DNA of 64,000 nucleotides. Source: an uncultured Selenomonadales bacterium (GTDB taxonomy: Bacteria; Bacillota; Negativicutes; Selenomonadales; Selenomonadaceae). The stretch spans positions 1 to 64,000 of the forward strand of contig CAMZAX010000010.1 in assembly GCA_947304355.1 (NCBI GenBank). The letters run 5' to 3'. Of this stretch, positions 52,760 through 60,833 are shown one piece after another. The notes below the pieces were generated by a model. It made no database searches. It saw only the letters and a program-made list of their open reading frames with translations, and was not told where the DNA came from. A program made the position numbers and the translations under genes. Numbering within the stretch: the stretch's first letter is position 1; each line of letters starts with the position of its first letter.

Positions 52760-54559
52760 TTGAACGACAAGATTAGAAATTTTTCAATCATCGCGCACAT
52801 AGATCACGGCAAATCGACTTTGGCTGACCGCCTAATCGAAATGACGGGCACCGTCGAAAAGCGCGAGATGAACGAACAATTTTTGGACAACATGGAGCTG
52901 GAACGCGAACGCGGCATCACAATCAAGGCGCAGACCGTCCGCCTGAAGTACACCGCCCGCGACGGCGAAACTTATCTGCTAAATCTTATCGACACGCCCG
53001 GGCACGTTGACTTCACTTACGAAGTCTCACGCAGTTTGGCGGCGTGCGAAGGCGCATTGCTCGTCGTGGACGCAACCCAGGGCGTCGAGGCTCAAACGCT
53101 GTCGAACGTCTACCTTGCGCTTGAACACGATCTTGAAATCGTGCCTGTCATCAACAAAATCGATTTGCCCAGCGCAGATGTCGAACGCGCCCGCGAAGAA
53201 ATCGAAGAGGCTGTCGGACTGGACGCAAGCGACGCCGTGAAATGTTCCGCGAAGACCGGCGAAGGTGTCGACGAAATTTTGGAGGCAATCGTCAATCGAA
53301 TCCCGCCGCCCGAAGGTGACGCGACCAAACCTTTGCAAGCGTTGATATTCGATTCGTATTTCGACTCGTACAAGGGCGCGGTTGCTCACGTAAGAATTTT
53401 CGACGGCACCGTTCGCAAAGGCGACAAGCTCAAACTTTTGGCGACGGGCAAGGAATTCGAGGCGACCGAACTCGGTATCTTCGCGCCGAACATGACTGAA
53501 CTTGACGAACTCCGCGCGGGCGAAGTCGGTTACATTTGCGGCAGTCTCAAAGACGTGCGCGACGTTCGCGTAGGCGACACCGTCACCACTGCCCAAAAAC
53601 CTGCGCGGGCATTGGCGGGCTATCGTGCGCCCGTGCCGATGGTTTTCTGCGGACTGTACCCGACCGACAGCGTCGACTACGACAACTTGAAAGACGCGCT
53701 GGAAAAACTTCAGCTCAACGACGCCGCGCTTGTTTACGAGCCCGAAACGTCCGCCGCATTGGGTTTCGGTTTCCGTTGCGGCTTTTTGGGACTGCTTCAC
53801 ATGGACGTTATTCAGGAGCGGCTTGAACGCGAATACAAGCTGAAAATTGTCACCACTGCGCCGAGCGTCGTCTATCGCGTGCACAAAACCAACGACGAGG
53901 TCATTTCGATTGACAACCCCGCCGCCTTGCCGCCCACGACCGAAATTAAATTTATCGAAGAACCCATGGTCAAAGCGACCGTCATTGTGCCGAGCGACTA
54001 TATCGGCGCGGTCATGGAGCTTTGTCGCGACAAGCGCGGCACCTACAAGAGCATGGACTATATCGACAAGACACGCGTCATGATCGTCTACGAAATGCCG
54101 CTCAACGAAATCATCTACGACTTTTTCGACAAGCTCAAATCGATGACGCGCGGCTACGCAAGCCTTGACTACGAGCTGAGCGACTACAAGGAAAGCGACC
54201 TTGCCAAGCTTGACATCCTGTTGAACGGCGACTTGATTGACGCGCTGAGTTCAATCGTTCACCGCACGCGCGCCGCCAAAATCGGGCGGATTCTCGCGCT
54301 CAAGCTCAAGCGTATCATCCCCGAACAGCTGTTCGACATTCCCGTTCAAGCGGCTATCGGCGGCAGGATTATCGCCCGCGAAACCGTCAAGGCGCGCCGC
54401 AAGGACGTGTTGGCGAAATGTTACGGCGGCGACGTCTCTCGCAAGCGCAAACTCCTTGAAAAGCAGAAAGCCGGCAAGAAACGCATGAAGGCTGTCGGCA
54501 GCGTCGAACTCCCGCAAGAAGCGTTCATGGCTGTCCTTACCGTCGGTGATGAGGAGTGA
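52760..54559 (+). CDS. lepA: elongation factor 4
   Basis: '[18 protein letters not shown]', '[10 protein letters not shown]', '[10 protein letters not shown]', LepA C-terminus. Confidence 0.96.
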
Positions 54560-54565
54560 CGAGCT

Positions 54566-55651
54566 ATGGCGGGCAACAGAAATCTCAACGCCGCCGCGCA
54601 GGGCAAGAACGACGAATTTTATACGCAATACGGCGACATCCAGCGCGAACTCAATTGCTATTACGAATACGACAACGACTTTCTGCGCGGCAAGACCGTC
54701 CTGCTGCCGTGCGACGACCCCGAATTCAGCAACTTCACAAAGTTTTTCGCGGCAAACTTCGGGCTTTACGGCTTGAAGAAACTCATCTCCACAAGTTACG
54801 CCGCCGAAAAGAAAAAATTTATCTACAAGCCCATGCGCAACCTTTTCGACGAAAACGACCTGCCGCAATTCGACGCGTCAAAGGATTTTCATCACGGAAG
54901 AATTTATACGCTCGAAGCCGAAGACTTCGCCAACGTCAAACACGAATTCGACCCGCTCAAGAATTGGCGATACCTCGACGGCGACGGCGACTTTCGCTCC
55001 AACGAAGTAAAACGCCTGCGCGACCAAGCCGACGTTATCATAACCAACCCGCCCTTCAGCATGTTTCGCGACTTCCTCAAGTGGATTCTCGACGCCGGCA
55101 AGAAATTTCTCATCATCGGCAACATCAACTGTATCACCTACAAGGAAGTCTTCCCGCTGATTAAGGAAAATAAAATCTGGCTCGGCAACGGCATGGGCAG
55201 ATGGATTTCGGGTTTTCTCGTTCCCGAAGGTTACGAACTTTACGGCACGGAGGCTCGCGTCGACGAAGACGGCAACCGTATCGTCGCTACCAATCAATGC
55301 CTTTGGCTGACGAATATCGAACACGGGCGGCGACATCAACCGTTGCGGCTCATGACTTACGCCGACTGCGAACAATGCCACCCGAAAGTTCGCGACACGG
55401 GCTTTCAACGCTATGACAACTACGACGCAATAGAAGTGCCCGCCACCGACGCCATCCCCCGCGACTACGACGGCGTCATGGGCGTGCCGATTACTTTCCT
55501 CGATAAATTTTGCCCCGAACAATTTGAACTGCTGGGCATTTCATATAATCACGGTGCGCCGGATTGTCACATAAAAGGCGAAACGTGGAATGCCCGCATT
55601 AACGGACGAGAAATTTACAAGCGGCTGTTTATACGGAGGCGACAACAATGA
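54566..55651 (+). CDS. EcoRI-family adenine-specific DNA methyltransferase
   Basis: 'AAQGKNDEFYTQYGDIQRELNCYYEYDNDFLRGKTVLLPCDDPEFSNFTKFFAANF' and 'ITNPPFSMFRDFLKWIL' characteristic of M.EcoRI-like methylases. Confidence 0.85.
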   Translation: MAGNRNLNAAAQGKNDEFYTQYGDIQRELNCYYEYDNDFLRGKTVLLPCDDPEFSNFTKFFAANFGLYGLKKLISTSYAAEKKKFIYKPMRNLFDENDLPQFDASKDFHHGRIYTLEAEDFANVKHEFDPLKNWRYLDGDGDFRSNEVKRLRDQADVIITNPPFSMFRDFLKWILDAGKKFLIIGNINCITYKEVFPLIKENKIWLGNGMGRWISGFLVPEGYELYGTEARVDEDGNRIVATNQCLWLTNIEHGRRHQPLRLMTYADCEQCHPKVRDTGFQRYDNYDAIEVPATDAIPRDYDGVMGVPITFLDKFCPEQFELLGISYNHGAPDCHIKGETWNARINGREIYKRLFIRRRQQ

Positions 55652-56841
55652 ATACGACACTGCGGACGGATTGGACGGTTCGGGACATCTGCGCGGGCTT
55701 CGAGTTCAGCGACGCGGAGGGCAAAGAGCTTTACGGCTTGGGCGGCAAGCTGACGATTCAACCGGAATATCAGCGGCATTATCTTTACGCGGAGCAAAAC
55801 GGCAAGCGCGAACACGACGTCATTGATTCGGTACTGCGCGGCTACCCGATAGGGCTTCTGTATTTCAACAAGCCGCAAACCGACGCCGACAGGTTTGAAG
55901 TCTTGGACGGTCAACAGCGAATCACAAGCCTTGGACGCTTCACGAAAAATTATTTCTCCGTCGAAGACGCGCACGGCTTTCCGCATTACTTCAGGACGTT
56001 GCCCGCCGCCGAGCGCGAAAAATTTTTGGCGACGCCGCTGACTATTTACATCTGCGAGGGCACCGAATCGGAAATCAAAGCGTGGTATCGGACGATAAAC
56101 ATTTCGGGCATTGAGCTTAACAAGCAGGAAATCGACAACGCGGTTTATTCGGGCGCGTTCGTCACGGCGGCGAAGGCGGTCTTCAGCAACAGCACGAATT
56201 CAAATCTTTACGTGTGGAAAAATTTCGTTCGCGGCAACGTCAAGCGTCAAGAACTTTTGCGGACGGCTCTTGAGTGGGTCGTTAAGTCTTCGGACGACAA
56301 AAAGGTTGCGGCTTACATGAGCGCACACCGCGACAACGGCGACATTGCCGAGCTTGAAAATTATTTCGCGGCGGTGATTGATTGGGCGCGTGCGGTCTTC
56401 CCGAACCTGCGCGACGAAATGTGCGGGCTTGATTGGGGACGGCTTTACGAAACGTATCACGCGAACACTTACGACGCGACGAAACTTGCCGCCGAAGTCG
56501 ACGAACTCTTTGCGCAGGACGACGACGTTATCACGAGCAAGCGCGGCATTTACGAATATCTTTTGAGCGGGCGCGAGCTGACGAACCTTTTGCAGATTCG
56601 TTATTTCAAGGACGCGGTCAAGCGCACGGTCTACGACAAACAGACGAAAGCCGCGCAGGCAGCGGGCGTGTCGAATTGTCCGATGTGCGCGGCGGCGGGC
56701 GGCTCACGTTCACGAAAAATTTGGGCGTTGAGAGAAATGGACGCCGATCACGTGACGGCTTGGAGCAAAGGCGGCGATACGACTGCGGCGAATTGTCAAA
56801 TGCTGTGCAAGGCGCACAACCGTTCAAAAGGCAACGCATGA
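55648..56841 (+). CDS. DUF262 (GmrS/ParB-like) protein with C-terminal HNH nuclease domain
   Basis: 'IQPEYQRHYLY', 'FEVLDGQQRITSL'; C-terminal 'CPMCAAAGG...MDADHVTAWSKGGDTTAANCQMLCKAHNRSKGN'. Confidence 0.85.
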   Translation: MNTTLRTDWTVRDICAGFEFSDAEGKELYGLGGKLTIQPEYQRHYLYAEQNGKREHDVIDSVLRGYPIGLLYFNKPQTDADRFEVLDGQQRITSLGRFTKNYFSVEDAHGFPHYFRTLPAAEREKFLATPLTIYICEGTESEIKAWYRTINISGIELNKQEIDNAVYSGAFVTAAKAVFSNSTNSNLYVWKNFVRGNVKRQELLRTALEWVVKSSDDKKVAAYMSAHRDNGDIAELENYFAAVIDWARAVFPNLRDEMCGLDWGRLYETYHANTYDATKLAAEVDELFAQDDDVITSKRGIYEYLLSGRELTNLLQIRYFKDAVKRTVYDKQTKAAQAAGVSNCPMCAAAGGSRSRKIWALREMDADHVTAWSKGGDTTAANCQMLCKAHNRSKGNA

Positions 56842-57953
56842 TGATTTACGTTCACATACCGTTTTGCGTGCGGAAATGTCATTACTGCGCGTTCAACTCC
56901 AAAGTCGGCGGGGCGGCGGAGCGTGCGGCTTACGTCGACGCTTTGACGCGTGAAATCAATCTGCGCGGCGATGATTCGGCGGTCGAAACGATTTACTTCG
57001 GCGGCGGCACCCCCACGACGTTGACGCTTGCCGAGCTTGAAAAAATTATCGGCGCACTTCGGACAGCGTTCACGGTCGACGACAACGCGGAGATTACGAT
57101 TGAGGCGAATCCCGGCACGGTCGACGCGACTTATCTGCGCGGGCTGAAGTCTTTGTGCTTCAATCGGCTGAGCTTGGGCGTGCAGAGCTTCAACGACGCG
57201 CTGTTGAAAATTTTGGGCAGGATACACGATTCGCGGGCGGCTATTCAAACCGTTGAGCTTGCGAAGATTTTTTTTGCCAATGTGAGCGTCGATTTGATGT
57301 ACGGCTTGCCGAATCAGACGCTTGAGGACGTTCGCCGCGACTTGGAGCGTATCGACGGGCTCGGCGTTCAGCACGTGTCGCTTTACGGTCTTGAAGTCGA
57401 AGACGGCACGAAATTTTTTGAGCTCGCCCGCGCAGGACGGCTTGCCTTGCCCGACGACGACACCGCCGCCGATATGTACGACTTGATAACGACGACGTTG
57501 CCCGCGCTCGGCTTCAAACGCTACGAAATCAGCAACTTCGCTCGCGAAAATTTTTTCAGCCGCCACAACGTCGGATACTGGACGGGCAAGCGATACTTCG
57601 GCTTCGGAGCGGGCGCGCACGGTTTCGACGGCAAGCTTAGGACTTCAAACGTGCGCGACGTTGCGACTTACATTGAACGGCTTAACGCGGGCTTGAGCGT
57701 CTCGACGGTCGAAGAGGTCGTCACGCGACGTGCGGCAATGGAAGAATTTTGTTTCCTCGGCTTGCGCATGACCGACGGCATTTCCGCGCGGGTCTTTGCA
57801 GAAAAATTCGGCGCGAATATCTTTGACGTGTTCGGCGCGGCGATTGACGACAACAGACGGCGCGGCTTGCTTGCGGTCGACGGCGACAAAATTTTTCTGA
57901 CGGCACGCGGCATGGCTTTGGGCAACGCAGTCTTCGCGGACTTTCTGCTTTGA
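56838..57953 (+). CDS. hemW: radical SAM heme chaperone HemW (coproporphyrinogen III oxidase-like)
   Basis: 'YVHIPFCVRKCHYCAFNS', 'YFGGGTPTTL', 'LSLGVQSFNDALLKILGR'; ATG 56838. Confidence 0.93.
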   Translation: MMIYVHIPFCVRKCHYCAFNSKVGGAAERAAYVDALTREINLRGDDSAVETIYFGGGTPTTLTLAELEKIIGALRTAFTVDDNAEITIEANPGTVDATYLRGLKSLCFNRLSLGVQSFNDALLKILGRIHDSRAAIQTVELAKIFFANVSVDLMYGLPNQTLEDVRRDLERIDGLGVQHVSLYGLEVEDGTKFFELARAGRLALPDDDTAADMYDLITTTLPALGFKRYEISNFARENFFSRHNVGYWTGKRYFGFGAGAHGFDGKLRTSNVRDVATYIERLNAGLSVSTVEEVVTRRAAMEEFCFLGLRMTDGISARVFAEKFGANIFDVFGAAIDDNRRRGLLAVDGDKIFLTARGMALGNAVFADFLL

Positions 57954-57962
57954 GGTGAGAGC

Positions 57963-58598
57963 ATGACGAATTTTAAAACGATAGCGGACGGAGAGATTTA
58001 CGGCGCGGCTTACGAGGTGAACAAGTCGAAATTCTTGGCGCATGTCCGTCACGTCGACAACGAGGAGGCGGCGCGCGACTTCGTGCTGACGATTCGCAAA
58101 AAATATTTTGACGCAACGCATAATTGTTCAGCGTGGGTTTTGGGCGAACGCGGCGACAAACAAAAATCGAACGACGACGGCGAACCCGGCGGCACTGCCG
58201 GCAATCCGATTCTTGAGGCGATAAAAAAGAACGGCTTGACTAACTGCGCGGTTGTCGTGACGCGTTACTTCGGCGGAATAAAGCTCGGCGCGGGCGGGCT
58301 GATTCGCGCGTATTCGCACACCGCCGCCCTTGGATTGACCGCCGCCCGTCAAGTGCAGATGACGACGTTCAAGCGGCTCGCCTTGACGCTCGAATACAAT
58401 TTCCTTGCCACGGTCGAAAATTATTTGCGCAACAAAAAAATCCGCGTCACGGGCACCGATTACGCCGATGTCGTGACGCTGGAAATTTTATTGTTGCCCG
58501 CGCAGGTCGAAAGCTTTTTGACGGAGCTGAACGATTTGACTGCCGCGAATTTTTTATCGGAGGATCTCGGCGACGTGCTTATTCCGATTGAGGTTTGA
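57963..58598 (+). CDS. YigZ/IMPACT family protein
   Basis: 'KSKFLAHVRHV', 'DDGEPGGTAGNPILEAIKKNGLTNCAVVVTRYFGGIKLGAGGLIRAYS'. Confidence 0.93.
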   Translation: MTNFKTIADGEIYGAAYEVNKSKFLAHVRHVDNEEAARDFVLTIRKKYFDATHNCSAWVLGERGDKQKSNDDGEPGGTAGNPILEAIKKNGLTNCAVVVTRYFGGIKLGAGGLIRAYSHTAALGLTAARQVQMTTFKRLALTLEYNFLATVENYLRNKKIRVTGTDYADVVTLEILLLPAQVESFLTELNDLTAANFLSEDLGDVLIPIEV

Positions 58599-60669
58599 TA
58601 GTGAACCAAATTTCGTCCTTGACGTTGGTGTCGCCAACACGGTCGAAATTTTCCGTAAGGAGCTTTGCAATTCTTAAGCAATCCTTCGTCGAAAAGCCCG
58701 TATCCATGTAAAAGCCGTCGGCGATTTCAAAATCCGTCGGCTCGGTCGGAAACAAACTCTTGGGAACGTTTTCAAGTTGCGTCGCGCGTCGGAAGGTGTC
58801 GCCGTCAAGCGCGTAGAGTTGCCGAACAATTTCGCGCAACATCCATTTCCAGTACGGCATTTTCATTTCCGTGCCGCAGACAGACAACGTTGCGGGGTGC
58901 GTCCCTTTCAACGCGTCGAAGTCCGAATCCAGTGTGAGCGTTTCGTTCATGTTCGGCAAAGCCTTATTTAATTCTTCGGGAAGTGTCCAAACTTTGACGG
59001 CAATCGCCGCCATTTTTTTTGCCCGCGCCTGAATCTGTTTGCTCGTCCAATCCGAACACTCTGCCAAGGCTCGCGTGCCGGGATAATTTGATTGCGAATA
59101 AAATTCTTTCTTGATGTCAAACTCTTTGTTGCCGAGTTCCGTATTGTAAGCGGTGAGAGTCAAGTTGCCGAGTGTATGGAGCAAAATCTCGTGCGCCGAA
59201 TTATCGTTGTGAGTTGCCAAATAATTTTCCCAAGCGACATTGAGCTTTTGCGGCAAAATGTGTTCGACAGTTGCCTCCGAATAAGACGGCAACTCTTTTG
59301 TTTGCGCCGCTCGCTCCAAAGAGTAAAGCAAATATCTGCAACCGTCACTTTTTATCGTTTCATACAAATTGTTGCCGACCAAAGCTGCCTGAAAGTCTTT
59401 GTCGTCCGGGAAAGCGTATCGCCCTTTGCCGAAGGTTATCGCTTGCCAAAAAGCTTTTTCGGTCAAAGGATTTTCTTTGTCGAGGCGCGCCAGCACATTG
59501 CCGGCGAATTGCGAAGTTATTCCGCTGTTCTTGCAAATTTTAGCGCGGAACACAAGCGAGATCAGCGCGTCGACAAATTTTATAAACGTTGCCTCGTCGA
59601 AGTGATTTTGTTCATAACGGTCGAGCAGATACATCAGGATAATCGGTGCGTTGTCGGCTTTGAGCAGAAAAGTCAACTCGTAAAATTTTTTGTCAAGCGC
59701 GAAAAGGTTGGCGAACTTGGTTTCGTCATTGAAGATGACGCGGCGGAAAAATTTTGCGTAGCGATACATTTCTTTCAAACAAGACTCGGCTTCGCTGTAA
59801 TTTTCGCTGAAATATTCCTTGAACACCGCGTAAAGATTGCGATTGCTCAGGCGTTGCTTTTTCGTCTCCATAACAGAATCGGATTTGCGCTTGGTTATAA
59901 GATATTGCACCAAAAATTTTTCCACGTTGTCGGACGGGCGCAAGAGTTTTTCCATTTTCAGCCAGTAAGTTTTGTAAAGATTTTCCTGCAAATCGTAGCT
60001 TAGCGGCATGAGCAAAAAATTTCGGATTAAGTCGGCTTTGGTTAAGTCAAGCCCGGTTGAGTTGAGCGACTCGAAAATTTCTTGCGGATTCTCTTCCTTG
60101 AGCAAAATGCTGACGACATTGAGCCGGTCTATTGCGTCGCAGAAATCTTCATGCGTGAGAGTCGACGCGCCGATTTTCTCGCGGAAAAATCGATAATTCA
60201 AATACATCGGAGAATTTTTTTCGGGCTCGGAGAAATCACTTTCGTCAAAGCCGTCGTCCGCCATCAGCTTTTCAAAAGTGGCGCGGTCGAATTCGTTTGG
60301 GCGCAGACGGCATTTGTTTCTGATATTTTTGCCCGTAGTGTGTTTGATAAATTTCGTCCGCATATCATTTTTTGAGTCCGCGTCGTCCGTTAAATCATAA
60401 AGAGCCTTGGCGAACAGAATAATGCTTGTGATTCGCTGTTGTCCGTCGATTATAACGTATTCCTGCGGCGCGCCGACGCCGGCGACTTCGTGTTGATAGA
60501 CGAACGTCCCGATAAAATGCGGTTTTTTGTTTCTAATGATACCGACAATATCGTTGAACAACTGCTCACAATTCGCCTTGCGCCAATCGTAGTTACGCTG
60601 ATAGACAGGAATTACCAAAGTTACTTCGCCCGAAATGAACTTCGTAAAAGTACATTCACCTGCTTGCAC
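58579..60669 (-). CDS. DUF262-DUF1524 protein (GmrSD/BrxU/SspE-like architecture)
   Basis: 'LVIPVYQRNYDWRKANCEQLFNDI', 'VIIDGQQRITSIILF', 'EIFESLNSTGLDLTKADLIRNF', 'EATVEHILPQKLNVAW...LHTLGNLTLTAYNTELGNKEFDIKK'; GTG 60669 after GGAGGCGA. Confidence 0.88.
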   Translation of the reverse strand: MQAGECTFTKFISGEVTLVIPVYQRNYDWRKANCEQLFNDIVGIIRNKKPHFIGTFVYQHEVAGVGAPQEYVIIDGQQRITSIILFAKALYDLTDDADSKNDMRTKFIKHTTGKNIRNKCRLRPNEFDRATFEKLMADDGFDESDFSEPEKNSPMYLNYRFFREKIGASTLTHEDFCDAIDRLNVVSILLKEENPQEIFESLNSTGLDLTKADLIRNFLLMPLSYDLQENLYKTYWLKMEKLLRPSDNVEKFLVQYLITKRKSDSVMETKKQRLSNRNLYAVFKEYFSENYSEAESCLKEMYRYAKFFRRVIFNDETKFANLFALDKKFYELTFLLKADNAPIILMYLLDRYEQNHFDEATFIKFVDALISLVFRAKICKNSGITSQFAGNVLARLDKENPLTEKAFWQAITFGKGRYAFPDDKDFQAALVGNNLYETIKSDGCRYLLYSLERAAQTKELPSYSEATVEHILPQKLNVAWENYLATHNDNSAHEILLHTLGNLTLTAYNTELGNKEFDIKKEFYSQSNYPGTRALAECSDWTSKQIQARAKKMAAIAVKVWTLPEELNKALPNMNETLTLDSDFDALKGTHPATLSVCGTEMKMPYWKWMLREIVRQLYALDGDTFRRATQLENVPKSLFPTEPTDFEIADGFYMDTGFSTKDCLRIAKLLTENFDRVGDTNVKDEIWFTIKPQSE

Positions 60670-60754
60670 GCGGCATCGCCTCCAAAAATTTTTTCGGTCA
60701 TTATAAATTGCAGTCGCGGCGATTGCAAGAAAATTTTCAACATATGCGGCGCGA

Positions 60755-60783
60755 TTTACTTTTTTATAGCGGCGTGCTATAAT
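60755..60783 (+). promoter_or_regulatory. sigma70-type promoter for nifJ (TTTACT-N17-TATAAT)
   Basis: hexamers and spacing read directly. Confidence 0.6.
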
Positions 60784-60833
60784 CGCGTGCAATGTTCAAT
60801 TTCCAATGTTTGAGAGGAGAGCTTTGATAGCTT

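Follow-up and report, generated by a model that had tools for sequence, protein, structure and literature searches.

A candidate two-gene restriction-modification system between lepA and hemW, pairing an EcoRI-family methylase that varies in cassettes with a near-constant DUF262-HNH nuclease

Type I (hsdS) and Type III (Mod/Res) restriction-modification (R-M) systems combine a variable specificity part with a near-constant nuclease, and the gene pair described here resembles them in its sequence pattern. Repeats or inversion cause phase variation in these systems, inversion being known for Type I hsdS (PMC7394358), and such variation resembles the putative switch loci that we found in relatives of the pair. 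NgoAV HsdS (Type I) occurs in two forms that differ in specificity, depending on the length of a repeat (PMC7394358); these are Type I subunits in truncated and full-length forms, whereas the relatives described here have three alternative ends. Unlike the Type I and Type III systems, the present pair consists of two small proteins with neither a helicase nuclease nor a separate S subunit; the helicase domain of Type III Res is absent, Pfam finding DUF262 and HNH domains alone in the partner of the methylase.

Type IIG enzymes carry the nuclease and the methylase in one chain, and both change together. In the Helicobacter pylori Type IIG enzymes Hpy99XIV and HpyAXVI, a frameshift at a repeat extends the protein by a C-terminal domain and was shown experimentally to alter the methylated motif (PMC3936762). 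Here, by contrast, an unchanged nuclease is encoded by its own gene, and most switch loci have a family-type C terminus in each of the three frames. C-terminal phase variation was named in Helicobacter canadensis, in which a repeat near the 3' end swaps the C terminus while the gene stays on (PMC2823697); that case differs in involving homopolymer tracts in unrelated genes, with mostly few residues changed and no cassette set.

The two proteins also have relatives of their own. The methylase belongs to the same family as M.EcoRI (PF13651), but, in contrast to the EcoRI system, its partner is a DUF262-HNH protein, no EcoRI-type nuclease lies alongside, and it has two swappable segments (V1 and V2). 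The partner shares its DUF262 domain and a DGQQR motif with GmrSD, BrxU, and SspE (DUF262-DUF1524 proteins), and its predicted fold is nearest to that of BrxU; however, its C terminus is a PF01844 HNH domain instead of PF07510, it is shorter (397 aa versus 580 aa for BrxU), and this type of nuclease is obligately paired with a methylase.

The first-pass annotation of this DNA had proposed a putative defense module. PADLOC already lists the two genes as a Type II methylase and restriction endonuclease (REase), and the open-access literature yielded no experimental description of the pair. Both families and PADLOC Type II models for both genes are already known, and the pairing itself is not unknown. 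In the open-access literature, we found neither the pair itself nor an exchange of cassettes next to a nuclease that is separate and constant, nor a choice of C terminus among three frames. What is new here is the swapping of V1 and V2 beside a constant nuclease, together with alternative V2 ends that, in relatives, are encoded behind a repeat or lie inverted.

The locus between lepA and hemW

The pair lies in the genome of a gut bacterium of the Selenomonadaceae, flanked by the housekeeping genes lepA and hemW. "The window" refers to the whole 64,000-nt stretch of DNA that was analyzed. Its relevant features are as follows.

52760..54559, + strand: lepA, upstream host gene and left border of the insertion (LepA Pfam domains)
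54566..55651, + strand: EcoRI-family adenine-N6 DNA methylase gene, 361 aa (PF13651; PADLOC MTase_II)
55046..55057, + strand: NPPF catalytic motif of the methylase, residues 161-164 (invariant in 30 relatives)
55648..55651, + strand: ATGA overlap of the methylase stop and the nuclease start (read directly)
55648..56841, + strand: DUF262-HNH gene, 397 aa, predicted NTPase-nuclease effector (PF03235 and PF01844; PADLOC REase_II)
55753..56142, + strand: GmrSD_N/DUF262 domain, residues 36-165 (Pfam PF03235, E=1e-16)
55906..55920, + strand: DGQQR nucleotide-pocket motif, residues 87-91 (invariant in 30 relatives; role from the literature)
56677..56835, + strand: HNH nuclease domain, residues 344-396, with Cys-x2-Cys and D367-H368 (Pfam PF01844, E=4e-6)
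56838..57953, + strand: hemW, downstream host gene and right border (TIGR00539 HemW)

The tight junctions reported by the first-pass annotation were all borne out. The gap between the lepA stop (54557-54559) and the methylase ATG (starting at 54566) is 6 bp, the methylase stop (55649-55651) overlaps the ATG of the DUF262-HNH gene (55648-55650), and the stop of the latter (56839-56841) overlaps the hemW ATG (56838-56840). The annotation had also described lepA and hemW as common neighbors and the pair as a compact insertion between them. The two genes are indeed adjacent in almost every genome sampled from the other families of this class, and empty sites with an ATGA overlap of lepA and hemW are present in two genomes of the same genus (G030 and G018); the right border in the window is an overlap of the same type. 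Ribosome-binding-like sequences precede both genes of the pair, and the GC content and GC3 of the pair are close to the lepA and hemW values. The pair is probably read together with lepA, because a coding-strand scan upstream of the pair found promoter-like matches before lepA (52698) and inside lepA (53133) and none in the lepA-methylase gap.

The methylase matches PF13651 (EcoRI_methylase) over residues 6-358 (E=7e-116) and PADLOC MTase_II over its full length (326 bits). Its NPPF site, on which the proposed role depended, is intact and unchanged across 30 relatives. The predicted model has a pLDDT of 77 overall, with V2 poorly modeled (about 35), and the fold search gave weak methyltransferase matches. 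In line with the statement that no EcoRI-type restriction gene is visible, none adjoins the methylase, and a search of the whole genome for PF02963 was negative, in an assembly that is about 88% complete and with a search that had no positive control. For both proteins, a PDB sequence search gave no credible relatives and NCBIfam held no model.

The DUF262-HNH protein matches PADLOC REase_II (PDLC03418) over residues 10-396 (278.6 bits). Residues unchanged in 30 relatives are DGQQR 87-91, C344, C347, D367-H368, and N391; the role of DGQQR as a nucleotide pocket comes from the GmrSD and SspE papers (PMC4619093 and PMC10952713). The predicted model has a pLDDT of 87, and its nearest fold is BrxU (7p9k, E=6e-4). 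Below significance, the fold search returned ParB CTPases and an HNH nickase; its matches include the Gme HNH structure 4h9d. The fold matches of the model fit an NTP-controlled nuclease. The suggestion drawn from GmrSD, BrxU, and SspE that the protein responds to modified DNA found no support; the HNH end is PF01844 and not DUF1524. The Pfam scan did not find PF07510 (DUF1524) in the DUF262-HNH protein, although it did find it in a second DUF262 protein that the window encodes.

That second protein (58582-60792, - strand, 737 aa, GmrSD_N plus GmrSD_C, matching PADLOC Orf5/HEC-06 models) is encoded just beyond hemW. The GC content of its gene is 46%, compared with 52-57% in its neighbors, which suggests that this gene is a recent arrival.

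Pairing of the methylase and the nuclease across genomes

The first-pass annotation had proposed searching for the co-occurrence of the two families, and we found them side by side well beyond this genome. In two collections, an EcoRI-family methylase adjoined the DUF262-HNH gene at 154 of the 160 best-scoring loci, a set that covers close to moderately distant relatives of the window nuclease; the other six loci were all cut by a contig edge. Among named genomes, the methylase lay upstream of the nuclease at 78 of the 80 best-scoring loci found with the nuclease alignment, and at the two unpaired loci 27 and 205 bp of contig precede the nuclease match. In the viral collection, the methylase was adjacent at 76 of the 80 best-scoring loci, the other four lying at a contig edge. 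The named-genome loci span Bacteroidota, Saccharibacteria, Patescibacteria, Anaerolineae, Clostridia, Proteobacteria, and others, and the two genes also adjoin on plasmids (Enterococcus, Phocaeicola, Moraxella, and others). When the survey started from the methylase, full-length copies were present in 6 of 399 genomes of the phylum, including that of the window, and the nuclease was adjacent in all six. The adjacency of the pair is not due to chance, because it is kept across phyla.

These counts bear on the possibility that the DUF262-HNH protein is a Type IV enzyme that cuts modified foreign DNA in the manner of GmrSD and BrxU, with the methylase as a mere neighbor. The shared DUF262 domain and the best solved-structure match, BrxU, speak for such an enzyme. 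However, pairing at 154 of 160 loci (contig edges account for the remaining six) would be unexpected for a stand-alone enzyme, and PF07510 was not detected in the protein; we consider this explanation extremely improbable.

The genus of the host is a special case. EcoRI-family methylases are unusually frequent there: 25 of the 37 same-genus genomes (G000 to G036) have a match, some with several copies, compared with five further genomes with a full-length copy among the 399 sampled from the phylum. The genus has 18 methylase C-terminal ends without a nearby nuclease, some of which are fragments or tandem modules of one locus, and one unexplained nuclease without a methylase (L083, on a 4.9-kb contig). 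Thus, there is an asymmetry within the genus: orphan methylases are common and clear orphan nucleases are not.

Methylase cassettes beside a constant nuclease

Two segments of the methylase vary among relatives.

55178..55306, + strand: V1 variable cassette, about residues 205-247 (swapped among relatives with near-identical nucleases, e.g., L190/L202 and L135/L134; boundaries approximate)
55538..55600, + strand: V2 core of the C-terminal module, about residues 325-345 (differs by a swap at the orthologous G010 locus and in many relatives)

The V2 core is held in a conserved C-terminal frame (MGVPITFLDKYCPEQFEI ... YKRILIR). Its types form a limited set that is common to otherwise diverged methylases across phyla. 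The window itself has a single fixed V2 cassette, with no tandem repeat and no inverted cassette. In the same-genus genome G010, whose LepA is 98% identical to that of the window, the same methylase stands in the same place (86% identical), with V1 in common and a C-terminal cassette unlike that of the window; a Fic gene follows, and the nuclease is reduced to remnants while the methylase survives.

We compared loci by nuclease identity. Where the nucleases were 96-100% identical, the methylases differed mainly in V1 and the C-terminal V2. One example is L190/L202, in which the nuclease (99.7%) and the methylase core (97%) are nearly the same, while V1 and V2 are 26% and 19% identical; at the DNA level, identity is mostly 93-100% outside the cassettes and 38-63% inside them. 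In L135/L134, the nuclease is 97%, the core 90%, V1 18%, and V2 29% identical, and in L157/L146 the nuclease is 96% and the core 97% identical, with identical V1 and 15% identity in V2. In L136/L137 (nuclease, 97%; V1, 29%; V2, 20%), the remainder of the methylase has diverged too (76%). L160/L161 (nuclease, 99%; V1, 88%; V2, 40%) is less clean, as the DNA of the 3' half of the methylase gene is 72-82% identical. Each of V1 and V2 can therefore be exchanged while the other segment and the nuclease stay as they are. No nuclease residues that covary with V1 or V2 were seen by eye in the alignments.

A difference in evolutionary rate alone and a homogenization of the nuclease alone were both considered as causes of the L190/L202 pattern and rejected, as the DNA flanking the cassettes is mostly 93-100% identical. 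Homogenization of the nuclease alone is possible in L160/L161 and L136/L137.

From this cassette-like swapping, V1 and V2 would be the target-recognition parts of the methylase. An alternative is that the cassettes vary to evade phage inhibitors or to alter methylase activity, with the switches described below acting on expression or activity instead of specificity. An arms race can also yield variable surface segments, but replacement of whole cassettes at two sites between near-identical flanks looks like the exchange of recognition domains in hsdS, as does a limited cassette set common to several phyla, and we regard this alternative as very unlikely.

If V1 and V2 set the site, the question becomes how the nuclease follows. 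In an ordinary Type II system, DUF262-HNH would cut its own fixed sequence, the methylase would independently protect the same sequence, and changes in V1 and V2 would either leave the site as it is or shift it within limits that the nuclease tolerates. The full-length matches of both proteins to PADLOC MTase_II and REase_II agree with such a system, and obligate pairing suits any R-M system. Near-identical nucleases nevertheless adjoin methylases in which both cassettes have been replaced, and a fixed nuclease would cut unprotected host DNA if V1 and V2 set the site. A nuclease that is constant while the methylase cassettes change is hard to reconcile with a fixed specificity of its own; we give the ordinary Type II explanation some weight but think it unlikely.

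A nuclease could also tolerate a changing motif by reading the methyl mark alone, as would an SspE-like effector that senses general host adenine methylation, is activated or held ready by it, and attacks invading DNA without sequence specificity. The coupling of a DUF262 NTPase to a nuclease, as in SspE, is in keeping with this. Against it, Pfam detected no sensor domain beyond DUF262 and an HNH that is not DUF1524, and SspE itself reads one defined motif (PMC10952713). An effector of this kind is, in our estimation, distinctly unlikely.

The simplest reading of a constant nuclease beside changing cassettes is that specificity resides in the methylase and that DUF262-HNH follows it. We thus favor, as reasonably likely on the available sequences, a two-gene R-M system in which the methylase provides protection and exchangeable specificity and DUF262-HNH is a constant, NTP-dependent effector. 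The scheme that we infer is as follows. The EcoRI-family methylase would recognize its DNA site via the exchangeable V1 and the C-terminal V2 and would methylate adenine there, marking self DNA. DUF262-HNH would be the constant effector, cutting DNA with unmethylated sites; it would be directed to the site by the methylase, probably as part of a complex, with NTP use by its DUF262 domain controlling the HNH nuclease. One nuclease can thus probably be re-aimed by a change in its partner. The original proposal of a restriction system with a DUF262-HNH effector and a protecting methylase is supported by the genomic pairing, the intact NPPF, and the lack of an adjoining EcoRI-type nuclease.

Putative repeat and inversion switches in relatives and same-genus loci

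Eight relatives have a presumably unstable tandem repeat in the first V2 loop, upstream of alternative C termini. The units are 2, 5, or 7 nt, none divisible by three: CACCGGA x4 (L053), AGCTC x12 (L081), GAACA x7 (L215), CA x21 (L296), and GA or AG runs (L136, L175, L193, and L248). Downstream of the repeat, nearly all frames end in the family C-terminal motif, and at most switch loci all three do so. The clear exceptions are a frame of L248 with a stop shortly past the repeat and a frame of L175 with a near match at its end (YRRILIIKR). As a background, 171 methylase ends that do not belong to the main switch loci were read out of frame and had a family-type end in 5 of 342 cases (1.5%), and the true background is lower because two of the five come from L248 itself. 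The corresponding binomial value (about 1e-19) assumes that frames and loci are independent; owing to the shared ancestry of the cassettes this holds incompletely, and the value means no more than far above background. Selection of the eight loci was post hoc, on the basis of their repeats or tandem modules, and each repeat switch is a single assembled sequence, with no variation in length seen within a strain. At seven of the eight, the adjoining nuclease reads intact or, in L296, is open to the locus end; L053 has no nuclease. In the same-genus genome G025 (L073), three modules lie in three frames at the contig start, and the nuclease is frameshifted.

At seven other loci, the methylase is followed by V2 cassettes in inverted orientation; the accompanying inverted repeats are 15-46 nt long and 76-100% complementary. 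Those of L253 (76%) and L197 (81%) are weak, and part of such a short match is expected without inversion because the repeats sit in conserved codons. The Alloprevotella locus L197 (3270-3800) has one attached V2 cassette, two more in direct orientation, and one inverted.

Intact nucleases beside methylases with three alternative C termini also count against the ordinary Type II explanation; a fixed nuclease specificity is least expected where one gene could produce several C termini. A broader proposal, namely, a widespread and so far undescribed two-protein class in which the methylase alone holds the specificity and which is diversified by cassette exchange, DNA inversion, and a repeat that would select among three functional C termini, one for each reading frame, is more tentative, and we place it close to an even chance. 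If true, a nuclease of about 370-400 residues could be re-aimed by a short segment change in its partner methylase, which would be attractive for understanding and engineering DNA-targeting enzymes. The pairs would also be a compact addition to the few R-M systems with reversible specificity switching, and a switch of this type would put all three reading frames to use, which is unusual. Because nature provides pairs whose nucleases are nearly identical and whose cassettes differ, the question is directly testable by methylome sequencing.

Several further observations concern the same-genus and related loci. In G033, a different subfamily of the pair lies directly upstream of hemW. In the genus of the host, a Fic/DOC-family gene stands between the methylase and the nuclease at L059, L026, L044, L056, L061, L072, and L075, as identified by Pfam for L059 and by sequence likeness for the other six. 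The hemW gene of G010 (L059:4495-4608) has an insert of ~114 nt, flanked by a duplicated hemW stretch, and its frame stays open; a similar split match occurs in G020:C32. Copies related to this insert number ~24 in G010 and are mostly partial in ten other genomes, including that of the window. Between lepA and the methylase start of G010 (L059, about 2370-2420), there are imperfect CTAGTCC-like heptamer repeats.
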